Origin: Streptomyces sp. CBMA291
GTDB lineage: Bacteria; Actinomycetota; Actinomycetes; Streptomycetales; Streptomycetaceae
Reading direction: 5' to 3'
Length of the DNA stretch: 64,000 nucleotides
NCBI RefSeq assembly: GCF_014596525.1
Contig: NZ_MSJP01000053.1
Span: 62,001-126,000, forward strand
Part shown: positions 8,922-16,771 of the stretch, piece by piece
How positions within the stretch are numbered: position 1 is the first letter of the stretch
How the letters are laid out: each line of letters begins with the position of its first letter
Translations under genes and position numbers: made by a program
Notes under the pieces: generated by a model
Told to the model about the DNA's origin: nothing
Databases searched by the model: none
What the model saw: the letters and a program-made list of their open reading frames with translations, nothing else

Positions 8922-9527
8922 GTGATCGAGACCTCAGCCGCCGACGTCCCGAAGCCGACCGGACGGGGCGCGGCGCGCCGCTCGGCCCTCTTCGAGGAGC
9001 TGGTCGCCCTACTCGTCGGCGAGGGGTTCGCCCGGCTGACGCTCGACGACCTCGCCGCCCGGCTGCGCTGCTCGAAACGGACCCTGTACGGCCTGGCCGG
9101 GAGCAAGGAACAACTGGTGCGCTCGGCCGTCGTGCACTTCTTCCGGCGGGCCACGGCCCGGGTCGAGGCGGCCCTCGCCGCCACCACCGACCCGGCGGAG
9201 CGCCTCGCGGCCTATCTGCGGGCGGTCTCGGCGGAACTGGCCCCGGTCTCACCGCAGTTCTTCGACGACGTGGCGGGCTTCGAACCGGCGGCCGAGGTCT
9301 ACGAGCGCAACACGCGCGCGGCGGCGGGCCGGGTCCAGGAGCTGATCGAGGAGGGCGTCAGGGCCGGGGTCTTCCGCGAGGTCCATGTGACCTTCGCCGC
9401 CGACGTCATCTCCTCGGTGATGGTCCGCATCCAGCGGCGCCAGGTGGCCGCCGCGACCGGTCTGGCCGACGCGGAGGCGTACGAGCAACTGGCGGAACTG
9501 CTCCTGAGCGGCCTGCGCCGGGCCTGA
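8922..9527 (+). CDS. TetR-family regulator, probably of the divergent acyl-CoA dehydrogenase
   Basis: The 201-residue protein has a TetR helix-turn-helix at about residues 18-62: GFARLTLDDLAARLRCSKRT then LYGLAGSKEQLV. Its C-terminal ligand domain has the TetR_C look with ERLAAYLRAVS and SPQFFDDVAGF. I chose GTG 8922, which has little 5' sequence with ribosome-binding character and may be a leaderless start. The longer frame to 8751 overlaps the divergent gene. The GGTACT palindrome just upstream is its likely operator. Confidence 0.82.
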   Translation: MIETSAADVPKPTGRGAARRSALFEELVALLVGEGFARLTLDDLAARLRCSKRTLYGLAGSKEQLVRSAVVHFFRRATARVEAALAATTDPAERLAAYLRAVSAELAPVSPQFFDDVAGFEPAAEVYERNTRAAAGRVQELIEEGVRAGVFREVHVTFAADVISSVMVRIQRRQVAAATGLADAEAYEQLAELLLSGLRRA

Positions 9528-9554
9528 GCCGCCCGTTCCTCCCCTTTCGGACCT

Positions 9555-10682
9555 TCACCTCAGGGAGCCGACGCGTCCTGCCGGGGTCTCGTGGTGGATC
9601 GGGGTGCGGACGCCGGTGAGGGGCGCTCCGGTGCCGCCCCGGCGGGCGGCGACGATCTCCGCGCCGATCGACAGGGCGGTCTCCTCGGGCGTACGGGCGC
9701 CGAGGTCGAGGCCGATCGGGGAGCGCAGCCTGGCCAGTTCCCGCGCGGTGACACCGGCCTCGCGCAGGCGGGCGGCGCGGTCCTCGTGGGTACGGCGGGA
9801 GCCCATCGCCCCGATGTAGGCGACGGGAAGCCGCAGGGCGGCCCTGAGGAGGGGCACGTCGAACTTGGCGTCGTGGGTCAGGACGCACAGCACGGTACGG
9901 GCATCGACCGTCGTCGTCTCCAGATAGCGGTGCGGCCAGCCGACGACGACTTCGTCGGCCTCGGGGAAGCGCGCCGCCGTCGCGAAGACGGGCCGCGCGT
10001 CGCAGACGGTGACGTGGTAGCCGAGGAGCTTGCCGACCCGCACCAGGGCGGCGGCGAAGTCGACGGCACCGAAGACGATCATGCGTGGGGCGGGGACGGA
10101 GGACTCGACGAGAAGGGTCAGGGGGCGACCGCAGCGGCTGCCGTCCTCCCCGATCTCCACGGTGCCGGTGCGGCCCGCGTCCAGCATCGCGAGGGCCTCG
10201 CCCGCCGCCGTCCGGTCGAGCGCGGGGTGGCCGCCCAGTCCTCCCTCGTAGCCGCCGTCGGGTCGGACCAGCAGAGCCCGGCCCAGCAGGTCGTCGGGGC
10301 CCGCGACGATCCGGGCCAGGGCCGCCGTCTCCCCCGCCGCGGCGGCGGCGAGCGCGGCGGGGACGACTCCGTCGCGTACCGGTGCGATCAGGACGTCGAT
10401 GACTCCGCCGCAGGTCAGACCCACCGCGAAGGCGTCCTCTTCGCTGTAGCCGAAGCGCTCGACGAGCGCCCTGCCGTCTTCGATGGCGCGCCCGCACAGC
10501 TCGTAGACCGCGCCCTCCACGCACCCGCCTGAGACCGAGCCGATCGCCGTTCCCTCGCTGTCGACGGCGAGGGCGGCGCCCGGCTGCCGGGGCGCGCTGC
10601 CGCCGACGGCCACCACGGTGGCGACGGCGAAGGCACGCCCCTGCCCGACCCACCGGTGCAGCTCCTCGGCGATGTCCAGCAT
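9555..10682 (-). CDS. xdhC: XdhC/CoxI-family molybdenum cofactor maturation protein
   Basis: The 375-residue protein starts MLDIAEELHRWVGQGRAFAV, the XdhC_CoxI domain. About residues 165-330 form the XdhC Rossmann domain (IVFGAVDFAAALVRVGKLLG then VTVCDARPVFATAARFPEAD). XdhC binds molybdenum cofactor, promotes its sulfuration and inserts it into xanthine dehydrogenase. It is the last gene of the xdh operon, 112 bases after the Mo subunit. It is convergent with the TetR gene, with only 27 bases between stops and no clear hairpin. Confidence 0.92.
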   Translation of the reverse strand: MLDIAEELHRWVGQGRAFAVATVVAVGGSAPRQPGAALAVDSEGTAIGSVSGGCVEGAVYELCGRAIEDGRALVERFGYSEEDAFAVGLTCGGVIDVLIAPVRDGVVPAALAAAAAGETAALARIVAGPDDLLGRALLVRPDGGYEGGLGGHPALDRTAAGEALAMLDAGRTGTVEIGEDGSRCGRPLTLLVESSVPAPRMIVFGAVDFAAALVRVGKLLGYHVTVCDARPVFATAARFPEADEVVVGWPHRYLETTTVDARTVLCVLTHDAKFDVPLLRAALRLPVAYIGAMGSRRTHEDRAARLREAGVTARELARLRSPIGLDLGARTPEETALSIGAEIVAARRGGTGAPLTGVRTPIHHETPAGRVGSLR

Positions 10683-10794
10683 GGTCGGTCTCCTCGGGGT
10701 ACGGGGCGGGCGCCGGGTGCCGTGCGGCTCCGGCACGGGGGCGGGGCGGGTGCCGGGGGCCGGGTGGCTCCGGCACGGGGACGGTCTTCTCCCA

Positions 10795-13251
10795 TCATCC
10801 CGCCGGGGGCCGCTCCTCTCCGCCGGTCCCGGTCCCGGGGTCCGCTTCCGGCATGCCGGTGAGGACTTCGGGGCGGACCGGTGTCCTGGTGAGGTCCAGG
10901 CCGGTCGCGTTCCGGATCGCCGCGAGGACCGCCGGAGTGGACGACAGGGTCGGGGCCTCGCCGACTCCCCGCAGGCCGTACGGCGCGTGGGGGTCGGGCA
11001 GTTCGAGGACGTCGACCGGCAGGGGCGGGGTGTCGAGGATCGTCGGGATCAGATAGTCCGTGAAGGACGGATTGCGCACGCGCGCGGTCTTCGGGTCCAC
11101 GAGGATCTCCTCCATCACCGCGACGCCGAGGCCCTGGGTGGTGCCGCCGTGGATCTGGCCGACGACGGAGAGCATGTTGACGGCCTTGCCGACGTCCTGG
11201 GCGGTGGCGAGTTCGACGACCTTGACGAGGCCGAGTTCGGTGTCCACCTCCACGACGGCCCGGTGCGCGGCGAAGGAGTACTGGACGTGTCCGAAGCCCT
11301 GGCCGGTGACGGGGTCGAGGGCCTGGGTGGGGCGGTGCCGGAACTCCCGCTCGATGTCGATCGGTTCCTCCCCTTCCAGGACCTCGGCGAGGCTCGCGAG
11401 GACCTCGCCGTCCTGGGTGACGACCTTGCCGTCCTCCAGGCGCAGCGCCTCGGACGCCCAGGCGGGGTGGCGGGAGCCCCGCTTGCGGCGGCCGATCTCC
11501 AGGACCTTCGCGCGGACGGCCTCGCAGGTGTGCTTCACGGCGCCGCCGGTCATGTACGTCTGCCGGGACGCGGAGGTCGAACCGGCGGAGCCGACCCGGG
11601 TGTCGGCCGGGTGCAGGGTGACCTGGGCGACGCCCAGTTCGGTGCGGGCGATCTGGGCGTGCACGGTGACCCCGCCCTGCCCGACCTCCGCCATGGCCGT
11701 GTGGACCAGGGCGACAGGTTCGCCGTTGACGGCCTGGAGGACCACCCGGGCGGTCGAGTAGTCGTCGAAGCCCTCGGAGAAGCCGACGTTCTTGATGCCG
11801 ACGCCGTAGCCGACGCCCCGGACGACTCCCTCGCCGTGCGTGGTGTTGGAGAGGCCGCCGGGCAGCGCGCGGACGTCCGGGCCCTCGCCCGCCGTCTCCC
11901 ACTGGCGCTCCGGCGGCATCGGGCGGGCCTTGACGAGCCGCAGCAGTTCGGCGACCGGTGCGGGCGAGTCCACGATCTGGCCGGTCGGCATGACCGCGCC
12001 CTGTTCCATGGCGTTGATCCGGCGGAACTCGACCGGGTCCATGCCCAGTTCGGCAGCGAGCTTGTCCATCTGGGCCTCGTAGGCGAAGCAGGCCTGGACC
12101 GCGCCGAAGCCGCGCATCGCGCCGCAGGGCGGGTTGTTGGTGTAGAGCGCGAGCGCCTCGATGTCGACGTCGTCGACGACGTACGGTCCCGCCGAGAGGG
12201 AGGAGGCGTTGCCGACGACGGCCGGGGAGGAGGAGGCGTAGGCGCCGCCGTCGAGGACGATCCGGCACTTCATGTGGGTGAGCCTGCCGTCCCTGGTGGC
12301 GCCGTGCTCGTAGCGGAGCTTCGCCGGGTGGCGGTGCACATGCCCGAAGAAGGACTCGAAGCGGTTGTAGACCATCTTGACGGGCCGGCCGGTGCGCAGG
12401 GCGAGCAGACAGGCGTGGATCTGCATGGAGAGGTCCTCGCGGCCGCCGAAGGCGCCGCCGACGCCGGAGAGCGTCATGCGGATCTTCTCCTCGGGCAGCC
12501 CGAGGACGGGGGCGATCTGCCGGAGGTCCGCGTGCAGCCACTGGGTGGCGACGTAGAGATCGACGCCGCCGTCCTCCGCGGGGACGGCGAGACCGGACTC
12601 GGGGCCGAGGAAGGCCTGGTCCTGCATGCCGAAGGTGTACTCGCCGGTGACGACGACGTCGGCGCGCCGGGCGGCCCGGTCCGCGTCGCCCCGCACGATG
12701 GGCTGGCGGTGCAGGACGTTGGGGTGGGGGACGTGGCGGCTGTGGTGGTCGGTGCGGTTCTCGTGGAGGACGGGCGCGCCGGGGGCGAGGGCGGAGGCCT
12801 CGTCCGTGACGATGGGCAGTTCCCGGTAGTCGACCTTGATCGCGGCGGCGGCGCGGCGGGCGGTCTCCGGATGGTCGGCGGCGACCAGGGCCACCGGCTC
12901 GCCGTGGTAGCGGACCCGGTCGTGGGCGAGGGCGGGGGTGTCCTGGATCTCCAGGCCGTAGTGCTTGGTGTCGGCGGGCAGGTCGTCGTAGGTGAGCACG
13001 GCGTGCACCCCGGGCATCGCGAGGGCCTCGGTGGTGTCGAGGGAGACGATCTCGGCGTGGGCGAGGGGGGAGCGCAGGGTGTGCCCCCAGAGCATGTCCT
13101 CGTGCCACAGGTCCGAGGCGTACGCGAACTCCCCGGTGACCTTCAGGGTGCCGTCGGGGCGCAGCGTGGACTCGCCGACGCCTCCCCTGGTGTGGTGCTG
13201 GGTGACACCGGCGGGGGCACCTGCCGGGACGGTACGGGTGGGCTGGGTCAC
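10795..13251 (-). CDS. xanthine dehydrogenase, molybdopterin-binding subunit
   Basis: The 818-residue subunit carries the a/b hammerhead domain (about 20-130) and the two Mo-binding domains. Visible motifs are GVGGAFGGRED in the cofactor region, GAMRGFGAVQACFAYEAQMD (the molybdopterin loop with Arg) and GVGEAPTL near the C-terminus, where Glu is the catalytic base. It oxidises hypoxanthine and xanthine to urate with the FAD and Fe-S subunits encoded upstream. The start GTG 13251 overlaps a TGA (GTGA) belonging to a 13-residue mini-ORF in a triplicated repeat, so translation is probably coupled. Substrate choice among purines is not provable here. Confidence 0.92.
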   Translation of the reverse strand: MTQPTRTVPAGAPAGVTQHHTRGGVGESTLRPDGTLKVTGEFAYASDLWHEDMLWGHTLRSPLAHAEIVSLDTTEALAMPGVHAVLTYDDLPADTKHYGLEIQDTPALAHDRVRYHGEPVALVAADHPETARRAAAAIKVDYRELPIVTDEASALAPGAPVLHENRTDHHSRHVPHPNVLHRQPIVRGDADRAARRADVVVTGEYTFGMQDQAFLGPESGLAVPAEDGGVDLYVATQWLHADLRQIAPVLGLPEEKIRMTLSGVGGAFGGREDLSMQIHACLLALRTGRPVKMVYNRFESFFGHVHRHPAKLRYEHGATRDGRLTHMKCRIVLDGGAYASSSPAVVGNASSLSAGPYVVDDVDIEALALYTNNPPCGAMRGFGAVQACFAYEAQMDKLAAELGMDPVEFRRINAMEQGAVMPTGQIVDSPAPVAELLRLVKARPMPPERQWETAGEGPDVRALPGGLSNTTHGEGVVRGVGYGVGIKNVGFSEGFDDYSTARVVLQAVNGEPVALVHTAMAEVGQGGVTVHAQIARTELGVAQVTLHPADTRVGSAGSTSASRQTYMTGGAVKHTCEAVRAKVLEIGRRKRGSRHPAWASEALRLEDGKVVTQDGEVLASLAEVLEGEEPIDIEREFRHRPTQALDPVTGQGFGHVQYSFAAHRAVVEVDTELGLVKVVELATAQDVGKAVNMLSVVGQIHGGTTQGLGVAVMEEILVDPKTARVRNPSFTDYLIPTILDTPPLPVDVLELPDPHAPYGLRGVGEAPTLSSTPAVLAAIRNATGLDLTRTPVRPEVLTGMPEADPGTGTGGEERPPAG

Positions 13252-13289
13252 GGCCGGGCCGCCTTTCCGTCGCGGGTGGACTGGGTCAC
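13248..13289 (-). CDS. mini-ORF 2 in the xdh junction (13 residues)
   Basis: This GTG-initiated frame encodes MTQSTRDGKAARP. Its stop overlaps the GTG of the Mo subunit as GTGA, and its own start overlaps the stop of mini-ORF 1 in the same way. GGGGAAG lies nine bases before its GTG. The peptide is unlikely to have a function of its own; it may keep ribosomes coupled across the gap. It is a repeat by-product unless expression is shown. Confidence 0.35.
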   Translation of the reverse strand: MTQSTRDGKAARP

Positions 13290-13327
13290 GGCCGGGCCGT
13301 CTTCCCCTGGCGGGTGGATCGGGTCAC
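13286..13327 (-). CDS. mini-ORF 1 in the xdh junction (13 residues)
   Basis: This GTG-initiated frame encodes MTRSTRQGKTARP. Its GTG overlaps the TGA of the Fe-S subunit gene, and its TGA overlaps the GTG of mini-ORF 2. GGGAGAGG precedes it. The peptide resembles the last residues of the Fe-S subunit (QGEAARP), showing that the repeats copy the end of that gene. Confidence 0.35.
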   Translation of the reverse strand: MTRSTRQGKTARP

Positions 13328-13935
13328 GGCCGGGCCGCCTCTCCCTGGCCGGTGGACTCTCCCTGGCGGGCGGCCGCGAGGCGGACCGCGTCGAGGATCT
13401 TCTCGTAGCCGGTGCAGCGGCAGAGGTTGCCGGAGAGGGCCTCCCTGATGTCCTGGTCGGAGGGGTCGGCCCGGCGCTCCAGGAGTTCGTCGGCGGCGAC
13501 CAGCAGACCGGGGGTGCAGAAGCCGCACTGGATGGCGCCCGCGTCGATGAACGCCTGCTGGACCGGGGAGAGTTCGGTGTCCTCGCCGGTCTCCGGGTCC
13601 TGGTCCGGCCTGGCCCGCCACCGCCGGGCGGTGTCGAGCGGGGTGCCGGGGGCGGCCGGGGAGCGGCCGTTCCGCCGGGCGCGCTCCCTGGCGTGGGCGG
13701 CGAGGCCTTCGACGGTGACGACCTCGCGGCCCTCGACCTGTCCGGCGGCGACCAGGCAGGCGCAGACCGGACGTCCGTCGAGGCGGACCGTACAGGAGCC
13801 GCATTCGCCTTGCTCGCAGGCGTTCTTGGAGCCGGGGAGGCCCAGGCGTTCCCGCAGGACATAGAGGAGGGACTCGCCCTCCCAGACGTCGTCGGCCTGC
13901 TGCGGGCGTCCGTTGACCGTGAAAGTGACGCGCAT
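13324..13935 (-). CDS. xanthine dehydrogenase, [2Fe-2S] subunit
   Basis: The 203-residue subunit has an N-terminal plant-type ferredoxin fold with CEQGECGSC (second cluster ligands at about 43-51) and a C-terminal [2Fe-2S] domain with CGFCTPG and CRCTGYE. It relays electrons from the Mo centre to FAD. A charged insert (about residues 85-125) makes it longer than the usual 160-170 residues. ATG 13935 lies two bases after the stop of the FAD subunit gene. The last codons lie in the third 38-bp repeat unit. Confidence 0.93.
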   Translation of the reverse strand: MRVTFTVNGRPQQADDVWEGESLLYVLRERLGLPGSKNACEQGECGSCTVRLDGRPVCACLVAAGQVEGREVVTVEGLAAHARERARRNGRSPAAPGTPLDTARRWRARPDQDPETGEDTELSPVQQAFIDAGAIQCGFCTPGLLVAADELLERRADPSDQDIREALSGNLCRCTGYEKILDAVRLAAARQGESTGQGEAARP

Positions 13936-13937
13936 GA

Positions 13938-14828
13938 CTAGGCGGCTCCTTCGAACGTACGACGGGTGTCCCGGTACTGCTCCCAGACCCAGCCGAGCTG
14001 ACGGCGGGCCATGACGCCGATGGCGTGGCGGCGGTAGGCGGCGGTGCCCCGGACGTCGTCGATCGGGCGGGCGGCGGCGGCGCACAGCTCGGCGAACCGG
14101 CGCGCGGCCGACGGGGGGACGGCCTCGCCGCTCTCCCAGCAGCCCTCCTCCTCCAGAACCGCGTCGAGGAAGGTCTCGGCCGCCTCGGCGCGGATCGGGG
14201 TCGGCGCGGCGGAGCCGATGCCGGTGCGCACGGTCCGGGTCTCGGGGTGCAGGGCGAGACCGAACGCGCAGACCGCGATGACCATCGCGTTGCGGGTGCC
14301 GACCTTGGAGAACTGCTGGGGACCGTCCGCCTTCCTGATGTGGACGGTCTTGATCAGCTCGTCGGGGTCGAGCGCGTTGCGCTTCACCCCCGTGTAGAAG
14401 GCGTCGATCGGGATGAGGCGGCTGCCGCGCACCGATTCGACCTCGACCTCGGCTCCGGCGGCGAGCAGGGCGGGGTGGGCGTCACCGGCGGGCGAGGCGG
14501 TCCCGAGGTTGCCCCCGACACCGCCCCGGTTGCGGATCTGCGGGGAGGCGACGGTGTGCGAGGCGAGCGCGAGCCCCGGCAGCTCGGCGCGGAGGTCCTC
14601 CAGGATGCGGGTGTACGGGACGCAGGCGCCGAGGCGTACGGTCTCCTCGCCGACCTCCCACTGGTGGAGCGGCTCGACGCGGTTCAGGTCCAGGAGGTAC
14701 TCGGGCCGGCGGTGGTCGAAGTTGATCTCGACCATGACGTCCGTGCCTCCCGCGAGGGGCACGGCCGCGGGGTGCTCCGCCTTGGCCGCGAGCGCCTCCT
14801 CCCAGGTGGCGGGGCGAAGGAAGTCCAT
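13938..14828 (-). CDS. xanthine dehydrogenase, FAD-binding subunit
   Basis: The 296-residue protein shows the CO-dehydrogenase-flavoprotein fold: PLAGGTDVMVEINFD binds FAD near residue 33, RNRGGVGGNLGTASPAGDA is the second FAD loop near 110, and a C-terminal CODH_FAD_C domain follows. It is the first gene of the xdh operon. The ATG start follows TGAGGT; a longer frame to 14885 has no support. It is divergent from the PucR-type regulator. Confidence 0.93.
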   Translation of the reverse strand: MDFLRPATWEEALAAKAEHPAAVPLAGGTDVMVEINFDHRRPEYLLDLNRVEPLHQWEVGEETVRLGACVPYTRILEDLRAELPGLALASHTVASPQIRNRGGVGGNLGTASPAGDAHPALLAAGAEVEVESVRGSRLIPIDAFYTGVKRNALDPDELIKTVHIRKADGPQQFSKVGTRNAMVIAVCAFGLALHPETRTVRTGIGSAAPTPIRAEAAETFLDAVLEEEGCWESGEAVPPSAARRFAELCAAAARPIDDVRGTAAYRRHAIGVMARRQLGWVWEQYRDTRRTFEGAA

Positions 14829-14981
14829 GATGACCTCACTGTCGTGTTCACGCCCTGTCGGCGCACGGTGTGACCCAGTACACAAGCCACCATGACCGGG
14901 GTGCAGTCACGGAAAACATGAAGCGGTTGGCTGGTCCCCCTCACCGTCTTGTAGATTCGAACGAAAGGCAGGAACGGCTAC

Positions 14982-15008
14982 CCCACCGTTCCCCTCTGGA
15001 AACGGTGG
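14982..15008. promoter_or_regulatory. inverted repeat in the xdh/pucR divergent promoter
   Basis: The 245-bp gap between the xdh operon and the PucR gene holds CACCGTTCC-N6-GGAAACGGTG, a near-perfect inverted repeat. It is the only clear dyad there and is a plausible site for the PucR protein or another purine-responsive regulator. Nothing else definite was seen in the gap. Confidence 0.35.
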
Positions 15009-15073
15009 CATCAGGCCACTGCCCACCACACGACACCCTCACCACCCCACGGACAAGAAACGGCGGCGACACG

Positions 15074-16771
15074 ATGCGGCTGCGCGCACTGCTGGAGAAC
15101 GACGCGCTCGGGCTGCGCCTGCTCGGCGGCGAGGAAGAACTCGACCGTGCCGTCCGCGGCGTGATGACGACCGACCTCAAGGACCCCAGCCGGTACCTCT
15201 CCGGCGGCGAACTGGTGCTCACCGGGCTCGCCTGGCTGCGGGAACCGGGCGACGCCGAGGCCTTCGTCCGGGTCCTGGCCGCCGCCGGGGTCTCGGCGCT
15301 CGCGGCGGGCGAGGTCGAACTGGGGAACGTCCCCGAAGACCTCGTACAGGCGTGCGCGCGCCACCGGCTCCCCGTCTTCGCGGTGAACGAGTTCGTTGCG
15401 TTCGCGACGATCACCGAGCACATCGTCCGGCAGGTCTCCGGCGAGCGTGCCGGGGACCTGGCCGCCGTCGTCGACCGGCACCGGCGCCTCATGACCTCGG
15501 GGCCCGCGGGCGGCGGCCCGGAGGTCGTCCTCGATCTGCTCGGCTCCGACCTGGACCTGCGCGCCTGGGTCCTCTCCCCCACCGGACGGCGGATCGCGGG
15601 CGCGGGCGAACCCCTCCCGGCCGCCCTCGCCGCCACCCTCGCCGGAGAACACCTGGCCGCCACCCGTACCGGCCGGCGCGGCCCCCACCGGGTCCTCAGC
15701 GGGGGCACCACGTACTCCCTCTTCCCGATCCGCGGCACCGGCCGGGGCCCGGGAACGACCCCACGGGACCCGCGCGAGACGGCCCTCTCGGACTGGCTGC
15801 TCGCCGTCGAGGCGGACGCGGGCGACTGGCCGGCCGCCCGGCTGGACCTGCTCCAGGGCGTGACCCAGCTGATCGCCGTCGAACGGGACCGGCGCGACGC
15901 GGCCCGTACCGTACGCCGCAGGCTCGCCCAGGAGATCCTGGAGCTGGTGCAGACGGGCGCGGCGCCCGCCGAGATCGCCGCCCGGCTGCGGGTGGCCGCC
16001 CCGGTGCTGCTGCCCGGTCTGGGCACCACCCCGCACTGGCAGGTGGTCGTGGCCCGGGTCGAGTGGGAGCAGGAGGCAGGACCGGGCTCCGCCGCGGATC
16101 CGGGACCCGCCGCGCAGGCGCTCCTTGAGGAGATCCTCGTCGACCCGTCGGCCGCGGGCGCCGAGTCCACCGACCGGATCGCCGTCGCCCACAGCGGTGA
16201 CGAGGCCATCGCCCTGGTGCCGCTGGCGGCGGGCCCGCGACCCGAGGACGGGGGCGAGCACCCGGCGCCCGCCCCCGGTCTGCACGCCGACGCCCTGCTC
16301 GCGTCCGTACGGGGCCCGCTGTCGGCCGGTCTCGGCGAGGACGGGCGGCTCACCCTGGGCGTCAGCGCCGCCGTGCACTCGGCGGAAGGGCTGCGCGGGG
16401 CCCTGGAGGAGGCCCGGCACGCACGCAGGGTCGCCGCCGCCCGTCCGGGCCGGGTCTGCGCCGCCGGGCACCACGAGCTGGCCTCGCACGTACTGCTGCT
16501 GCCGTTCGTGCCGGACGACGTCCGGCGGGCGTTCACCGCCAGGCTGCTCGACCCCCTGCGCGACTACGACCGGCGGCACCGCGCGGAGCTGATCCCGACG
16601 CTGGAGGCCTTCCTGGAATCCGACGGTTCCTGGACCCGCTGCGCAACCCGGCTCCATCTGCACGTGAACACGCTCCGCTACCGGGTCGGCCGGATAGAGC
16701 AGCTCACCGGACGGGACCTCTCCCGTCTGGAGGACAAGCTCGACTTCTTCCTCGCCCTGCGCATGAGCTGA
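15074..16771 (+). CDS. PucR-family transcriptional regulator
   Basis: The 565-residue protein has an N-terminal purine-catabolism domain (about 1-125: RLRALLENDALGLRLLGGEE, LVLTGLAWL). A GGDEF-like middle region follows. The C-terminal PucR helix-turn-helix has LHLHVNTLRYRVGRIEQLTG and ends DLSRLEDKLDFFLALRMS. Family members regulate purine or other nitrogen-source catabolism. The position divergent from the xdh operon makes those genes the likely targets. ATG 15074 was chosen because the PucR domain begins there and the upstream frame is unconserved. Confidence 0.9.
   Translation: MRLRALLENDALGLRLLGGEEELDRAVRGVMTTDLKDPSRYLSGGELVLTGLAWLREPGDAEAFVRVLAAAGVSALAAGEVELGNVPEDLVQACARHRLPVFAVNEFVAFATITEHIVRQVSGERAGDLAAVVDRHRRLMTSGPAGGGPEVVLDLLGSDLDLRAWVLSPTGRRIAGAGEPLPAALAATLAGEHLAATRTGRRGPHRVLSGGTTYSLFPIRGTGRGPGTTPRDPRETALSDWLLAVEADAGDWPAARLDLLQGVTQLIAVERDRRDAARTVRRRLAQEILELVQTGAAPAEIAARLRVAAPVLLPGLGTTPHWQVVVARVEWEQEAGPGSAADPGPAAQALLEEILVDPSAAGAESTDRIAVAHSGDEAIALVPLAAGPRPEDGGEHPAPAPGLHADALLASVRGPLSAGLGEDGRLTLGVSAAVHSAEGLRGALEEARHARRVAAARPGRVCAAGHHELASHVLLLPFVPDDVRRAFTARLLDPLRDYDRRHRAELIPTLEAFLESDGSWTRCATRLHLHVNTLRYRVGRIEQLTGRDLSRLEDKLDFFLALRMS

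Follow-up and report, generated by a model that had tools for sequence, protein, structure and literature searches.

Results

Repeated stop-start overlaps at the junction of two xanthine dehydrogenase genes

The window analyzed here, a 64,000-nt stretch of contig NZ_MSJP01000053.1 from the draft genome of Streptomyces sp. CBMA291 (6.9 Mb in 116 contigs), carries on its minus strand a xanthine dehydrogenase (xdh) operon in which the gene for the iron-sulfur (Fe-S) subunit is followed by the gene for the molybdenum-cofactor (Mo) subunit, pucD. The junction between these two genes is occupied by three tandem 38-bp units, each containing a purine-rich tract resembling a Shine-Dalgarno (SD) sequence, the motif CGGCCCGGCC, and a GTGA in which a stop codon overlaps a GTG start (Table 1). 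Two 13-codon open reading frames (mini-ORFs 1 and 2) are thereby placed between the subunit genes, and three 4-nt GTGA overlaps link Fe-S, mini-ORF 1, mini-ORF 2, and Mo in succession. This chain, already described by an original prediction made on the same DNA, is present as anatomy, as read from the sequence. Our analyses point, on balance, to a tandem duplication of the Fe-S/Mo coupling junction that is specific to this lineage, in which the relay of overlaps would be a tolerated by-product that keeps the genes coupled rather than an evolved tuner of the subunit ratio.

The repeat array is far beyond chance. Tandem Repeats Finder (TRF) reported it at 13235-13358 with a period of 38, 3.3 copies, 84% matches, no indels, and a score of 185, and a repeat search returned three 48-nt copies spaced by 38 and 38 nt, with 85% identity of the second and third copies to the reference. 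The junction had a top self-match score of 56.5, compared with a maximum of 19.0 among dinucleotide-preserving shuffles (0 of 2000 as high), and the GTGACC sites on the coding strand lie at intervals of 38 and 38 nt, which bears out the three units originally proposed. The Fe-S stop codon is the TGA at 13326-13324, and the Mo start lies 75 nt past its first base. Successive ORFs thus overlap or lie within ~10 nt of each other, as coupled pairs do, at all three GTGA steps but not directly from Fe-S to Mo. The Mo start itself is backed by homology (VTQPTRTVPAGAPAGVTQ in the window versus MAQNTRGVPAGTPTNVTQ in relative L010). A sequencing or assembly artefact, which a draft genome might invite, is very improbable, as the copies differ by substitutions, the array, 124 bp long, is internal to a contig of 238,625 bp, and the frames join at every overlap.

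The two mini-ORFs read M(GTG)TRSTRQGKTARP and M(GTG)TQSTRDGKAARP. The original prediction had likened their peptides to the C terminus of the Fe-S subunit, which in the window ends in AAARQGESTGQGEAARP and in many relatives in AAARQGEAV or similar. This likeness holds for the C-terminal part of the peptides (RQGKTARP and RDGKAARP versus GQGEAARP in Fe-S), and the N-terminal halves additionally match the beginning of Mo (MTRSTR and MTQSTR versus MTQPTR). Each 13-codon ORF is therefore a chimera of a Mo head and an Fe-S tail, as expected when a stretch spanning the whole junction, including the SD-like tract, is duplicated. Between the two mini-ORF units there are differences at 6 of 38 positions and no indels, and 9 of the 38 columns are variable among the copies. 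The mini-ORFs have different codons at four places, with a change of amino acid at three of them; the peptides thus look unconstrained, and a function of selected peptides was rejected on these grounds. The codons for the end of the Fe-S subunit also contain an extra 18-nt direct repeat (Table 1), which is possibly the remnant of a fourth 38-bp unit minus 20 bp.

The Fe-S/Mo junction in relatives

Relatives of the locus were gathered from searches of 295, 61, and 392 genomes that partly overlapped, from a scan of named genomes (at least 80 loci), and from 60 fetched stretches; among the named matches listed, 78 of 80 bear the title Streptomyces, one is an "Actinobacteria bacterium", and one an Actinacidiphila. 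Both anchor motifs were present in 205 of the 208 sequences, giving 173 distinct junctions, the window included, which represent distinct sequences and not species, some genomes occurring twice under two locus identifiers. The sequences left out of this count are L205 and L207 (10-base stretches) and L201, which is without the motif and shows a single junction when read by eye.

Close stop/start spacing is the rule at this junction. Counted from the first base of the Fe-S stop, a Mo-frame start lies between -1 and +8 nt in 169 of the 173 distinct junctions, 21 of them with an NTGA overlap and 148 at +2 to +8; starts were assigned automatically by taking the first one in the Mo frame in a search that began 12 nt ahead of the stop, and some of the -1 values possibly do not mark the true start. 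The remaining four junctions are the window (+75), L156 (+88), L068 (+182), and L078, which has no start value. L156 (469-643) and L068 (1308-1484) each carry an insertion of ~175 nt at the Fe-S stop with inverted-repeat ends (41-42-nt arms, 73-76% complementary), resembling a miniature inverted-repeat transposable element that parts Fe-S from Mo. In L078, from Streptomyces sp. Ru72, the Fe-S C terminus is frame-shifted and reads over the Mo start in another frame, reflecting either a sequencing error or a real mutation.

A 138-bp query covering the array matched the source genome alone, that is 1 of 394 family genomes from 17 genera (E up to 1e-6, scoring the top two candidate places in each genome), and the array was found in none of the other distinct junctions. 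The best identity of the Mo subunit outside the source genome is 85-86% among the matches listed; with the array in one genome and no close relative in the sample, variation in copy number was not observable. The distance from the CRCTGY motif of Fe-S to the KVTGE motif of Mo is 279 nt in the window and 185 nt in L010, an excess of 94 nt that equals 2 x 38 + 18; given that this distance ranges from 169 to 347 nt in other relatives, the sum fits the comparison with L010 and is not a law. This excess, the confinement of the array to one junction, and the presence of both an SD-like tract and an overlap in the unit give good support to the earlier proposal that a coupling signal was duplicated. 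A single-copy junction of the same type is found in L202, where the Fe-S subunit ends in RDGEAARP with a GTGA overlap. A single constrained ORF carrying the mini-ORF peptides, the arrangement that the original prediction had set against its own proposal, was seen in none of the 173 distinct junctions.

Strong tandem arrays (score of at least 25, the next score being 19.0) occur in 4 of the 173 junctions, namely L152 (period 24), the window (38), L168 (12), and L092 (18). Those of L152, L168, and L092 lie in the N-terminal codons of Mo, have periods divisible by 3, and lengthen the Mo N terminus in frame, for example with AGTSAGTP, MPAD-like, and GTEAS-like repeats. The stretch thus appears prone to repeats, and all four arrays leave Mo readable. 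Arrays in L084, L095, and L113 were rejected as junction duplications, being located in apparently non-coding DNA after Mo.

Initiation signals and RNA structure

An SD-like tract lies within the upstream ORF ahead of each downstream start, that of mini-ORF 2 being weak. Scored against a 12-nt sequence that we take to be the anti-SD, the tracts reach -12.0 kcal/mol for mini-ORF 1, -7.0 for mini-ORF 2, and -11.8 for Mo, the median for 171 relatives being -12.0; the 8-nt anti-SD core gives values of -7.1, -6.2, and -5.5, respectively, and a median of -7.1 in the relatives. The SD-like sequence of Mo is GGAAAGG, ten bases ahead of its GTG. RNA structure was rejected as the function of the repeat, as folding energies equaled those of shuffled sequences over 201 nt (z = 0.53) and 114 nt (z = -0.05), and single 38-nt stretches gave z values of 0.01, 0.33, and 1.38. 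No Rfam match up to an E value of 0.1 was found in 9000-15000, nor was a promoter or terminator consensus found near the repeat in 13100-13600, where the promoters scanned were of the sigma-70 type.

Tandem repeats elsewhere in the genome and loci

The source genome is rich in tandem arrays, with 14 merged arrays (the xdh junction array included) of TRF score at least 150 and period at least 15 in 412,482 bases. In the window, a duplication of 40 bp x 2.2 at 10695-10784 lies directly after Mo and before the XdhC-family gene; its units carry GTGCCGGAGCC and are without a stop/start overlap, so that no relay chain arises. A scan of 836,552 bases of loci for tandem units bearing NTGA (at least 75% identity, periods 14-99) returned the xdh array in the window and in the overlapping loci L001, L002, and L118, and one place each with a period of 0 and 1 modulo 3 (L120 and L144). 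A comparable scan of the 412,482 bases of the source genome (72%, periods 14-149) gave 30, 4, and 17 rows for periods of 0, 1, and 2 modulo 3, respectively, these counts being rows and not arrays, with the window contributing 2 of the 17 rows.

Bridging of same-strand genes like that at the xdh junction was not apparent in five regions read from the source-genome scan, four of which were checked against neighboring ORFs (mechanical ORFs, without family searches) and one, L213, judged from the sequence region alone. Tandem duplications with or beside stop codons, at apparent gene ends, were observed in the source genome at L214 (7500-7720, period 35), L211 (7150-7370, period 34/17), and L219 (10560-10740, period 19-20). 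Heptad runs of ATGAGCC and GTGAGCG are present on the minus strand at L220 (10308-10336 and 12590-12640), where every second unit forms a chained 5-codon ORF with NTGA overlaps (MSHEP and VSGER, each followed by a stop); these runs apparently do not lie between two same-strand genes.

Genetic setting of the junction

The Mo subunit passes the TIGR03196 pucD model with 798.2 bits against a cut-off of 783.65, which identifies the operon as a xanthine dehydrogenase operon. The Fe-S, FAD, and XdhC-family proteins score below the cut-off of related NCBIfam models and above that of their Pfam domains. The FAD subunit gene lies upstream of Fe-S in the same operon, the XdhC-family gene, assigned by Pfam, is a minus-strand operon member after Mo, and a PucR-type regulator is divergent from the operon. 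The translated Fe-S stretch has its first base at 13941 and an ATG (MRVTF...) at 13935. A plasmid origin of the window was rejected, as a plasmid collection gave no match.

Table 1. Features of the xdh locus, in window coordinates
Feature	Position	Strand	Basis
PucR-type regulator	14870-16771 (mechanical ORF)	+	
FAD subunit	13938..14885 (mechanical ORF coordinates)	-	Pfam FAD_binding_5 and CO_deh_flav_C
Fe-S ([2Fe-2S]) subunit of xanthine dehydrogenase	13324..13941	-	Translation; Pfam Fer2_2 and Fer2
QGESTGQGE codons of the Fe-S C terminus, with extra 18-nt direct repeat	13339..13365	-	Read from sequence
Three tandem 38-bp units	13245..13358	-	TRF, repeat search, shuffles
Mini-ORF 1, GTG start, 13 codons, peptide MTRSTRQGKTARP; GTGA overlap with Fe-S stop	13286..13327	-	Sequence, frames
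Mini-ORF 2, GTG start, 13 codons, peptide MTQSTRDGKAARP; GTGA overlaps with mini-ORF 1 and Mo start	13248..13289	-	Sequence, frames
Mo-cofactor subunit of xanthine dehydrogenase (pucD), GTG start	10795..13251	-	TIGR03196; L010-like N terminus

Discussion

The reading favored here, that a duplicated junction has kept the two subunit genes coupled, invokes the known mechanism of translational coupling by termination-reinitiation, and the xdh array appears as a real, lineage-specific variant of it, probably a by-product that preserves coupling. The ancestor would have had a single junction, in which the last Fe-S codons held an SD-like tract and ended in a GTGA that also supplied the GTG start of Mo. 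A segment of 38 bp spanning the end of Fe-S and the beginning of the Mo coding sequence would then have been copied, with slippage or recombination between short homologies as the probable mechanism. As 38 equals 2 modulo 3, each copy is read from its GTG, with a Mo-like head, through to the TGA of the copy that follows, with an Fe-S-like tail, which yields two 13-codon chimeric ORFs. Ribosomes finishing Fe-S would most likely restart at mini-ORF 1, then at mini-ORF 2, and then at Mo, such that the genes stay coupled, and part of the ribosomes would probably initiate de novo at the Mo SD. We propose that the array has been tolerated because it kept the genes linked, presumably with no selection on the number of copies.

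Published distance data bear on this proposal. Huber et al. 2023 (PMC10666635) report that reinitiation is almost lost at an intergenic distance of ~20 nt in both H. volcanii and E. coli, and that the final 15 nt of the preceding gene are sufficient for reinitiation, from which it follows that 13-codon ORFs could support it. With coupling nearly lost at ~20 nt and Mo starting 75 nt past the Fe-S stop, direct coupling from Fe-S to Mo across this distance is unlikely, and serial termination-reinitiation along the chain, which offers three steps of -4 nt each, is plausible. Several points weigh against a relay that is translated and merely tolerated. The distance data stem from other species, and a review (PMC12548453) cites older E. 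coli work in which coupling was 3- to 10-fold lower up to ~+40 nt, as well as a study without loss up to +25 nt. The SD-like tract of mini-ORF 2 is weak compared with the median of the relatives, and since that of Mo is ordinary by the 12-nt anti-SD, de novo initiation may be the dominant source of the Mo subunit; by the 8-nt core the Mo SD is weak, 6.4% of relatives being equally weak or weaker. Furthermore, the longest invariant run among the copies, 17 nt around CGGCCCGGCC-GTGA-CCC, has a P value of 0.03 under random placement (a post hoc statistic), a hint of constraint that would be superfluous for a pure by-product.

The strongest rival explanation holds that the mini-ORFs are an inert spacer, that Mo starts de novo at its own SD, and that the duplication has uncoupled the genes. 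This we regard as possible but rather doubtful. It is in line with the ordinary 12-nt SD score of Mo and with the amino acid changes between the mini-ORFs, and the insertions of L068 and L156, which shift the nearest in-frame Mo start, show that close spacing has been lost elsewhere too. On the other hand, the Mo SD is weak on the core measure, close spacing is kept in nearly all junctions compared, and the three overlaps and both frames are intact despite the 6 differences in 38 positions. In simulations starting from identical units, such a chain survived in 58-28% of cases after 4 to 10 random substitutions without indels and in 4-2% with one indel, so that its integrity leans mildly against an inert spacer.

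It is unlikely that the relay has been selected such that the number of units sets how many ribosomes reach Mo, slippage then providing a heritable dial for the Fe-S/Mo ratio. The purine tract, CGGCCCGGCC, and GTGA are kept in every unit, the invariant run described above would fit such constraint, and the partial repeat of 18 nt at the end of Fe-S is suggestive of an earlier change in copy number. However, the array was seen in a single genome of the 394 searched, the SD of mini-ORF 2 is weak, no signal of RNA structure was seen, the ~84% likeness of the units should slow slippage, and the benefit of a dial for an enzyme of fixed stoichiometry would be unclear. Moreover, when 20-60 bp spanning a GTGA overlap were triplicated at random in tandem at 74% GC, such a chain arose in 29% of trials, since the unit length has to be 2 modulo 3 and in-frame stops must be absent. 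The abundance of tandem arrays in the source genome, including the duplication after Mo that forms no relay, likewise speaks for a by-product. The evidence for the relay as a selected tuner is therefore weak, and the claim of the original prediction that copy number tunes the subunit ratio is left unsupported, the array being known from one genome and its chain arising so readily by random triplication. The more general notion, that mini-ORF number sets the flow of ribosomes between the subunit genes and that junction duplication offers a mutational route to new subunit ratios, also seems improbable.

As a single lineage-specific case, the duplicated junction has modest weight at present. It nevertheless offers a natural test object for the passage of ribosomes over serial stop/start overlaps, and under a constant efficiency per step, the output of Mo would be expected to drop stepwise with the number of units. 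It also illustrates how two genes can remain linked after a duplication that spans their overlap, provided that the unit length is 2 modulo 3.

The array shares features with several known systems. Like the variable number tandem repeats that tune bacterial gene expression, it consists of tandem units at an expression signal; unlike those repeats, for which variation in copy number is defining, its units are ~84% alike and not identical, and it is known from one genome. It resembles termination-reinitiation coupling at NTGA (-4 nt) overlaps in its overlap motif, in the SD-like tract within the upstream ORF, and in joining adjacent subunits of one complex, but differs from the usual case in that three overlaps follow one another and two 13-codon ORFs separate the two real genes. 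A natural series of overlapped mini-ORFs arising from junction duplication was not found in the literature searched, which comprised open-licence papers. Short upstream booster ORFs are also a feature of bicistronic designs, to which the mini-ORFs bear the same likeness as to nfORF booster ORFs. The latter, as described in PMC13255528, are short ORFs for nonsense peptides with an internal ribosome binding site by their stop, placed directly before the target gene; they are synthetic, whereas the xdh mini-ORFs are natural, stand two in series after a full-length gene, and would have originated from a duplication.

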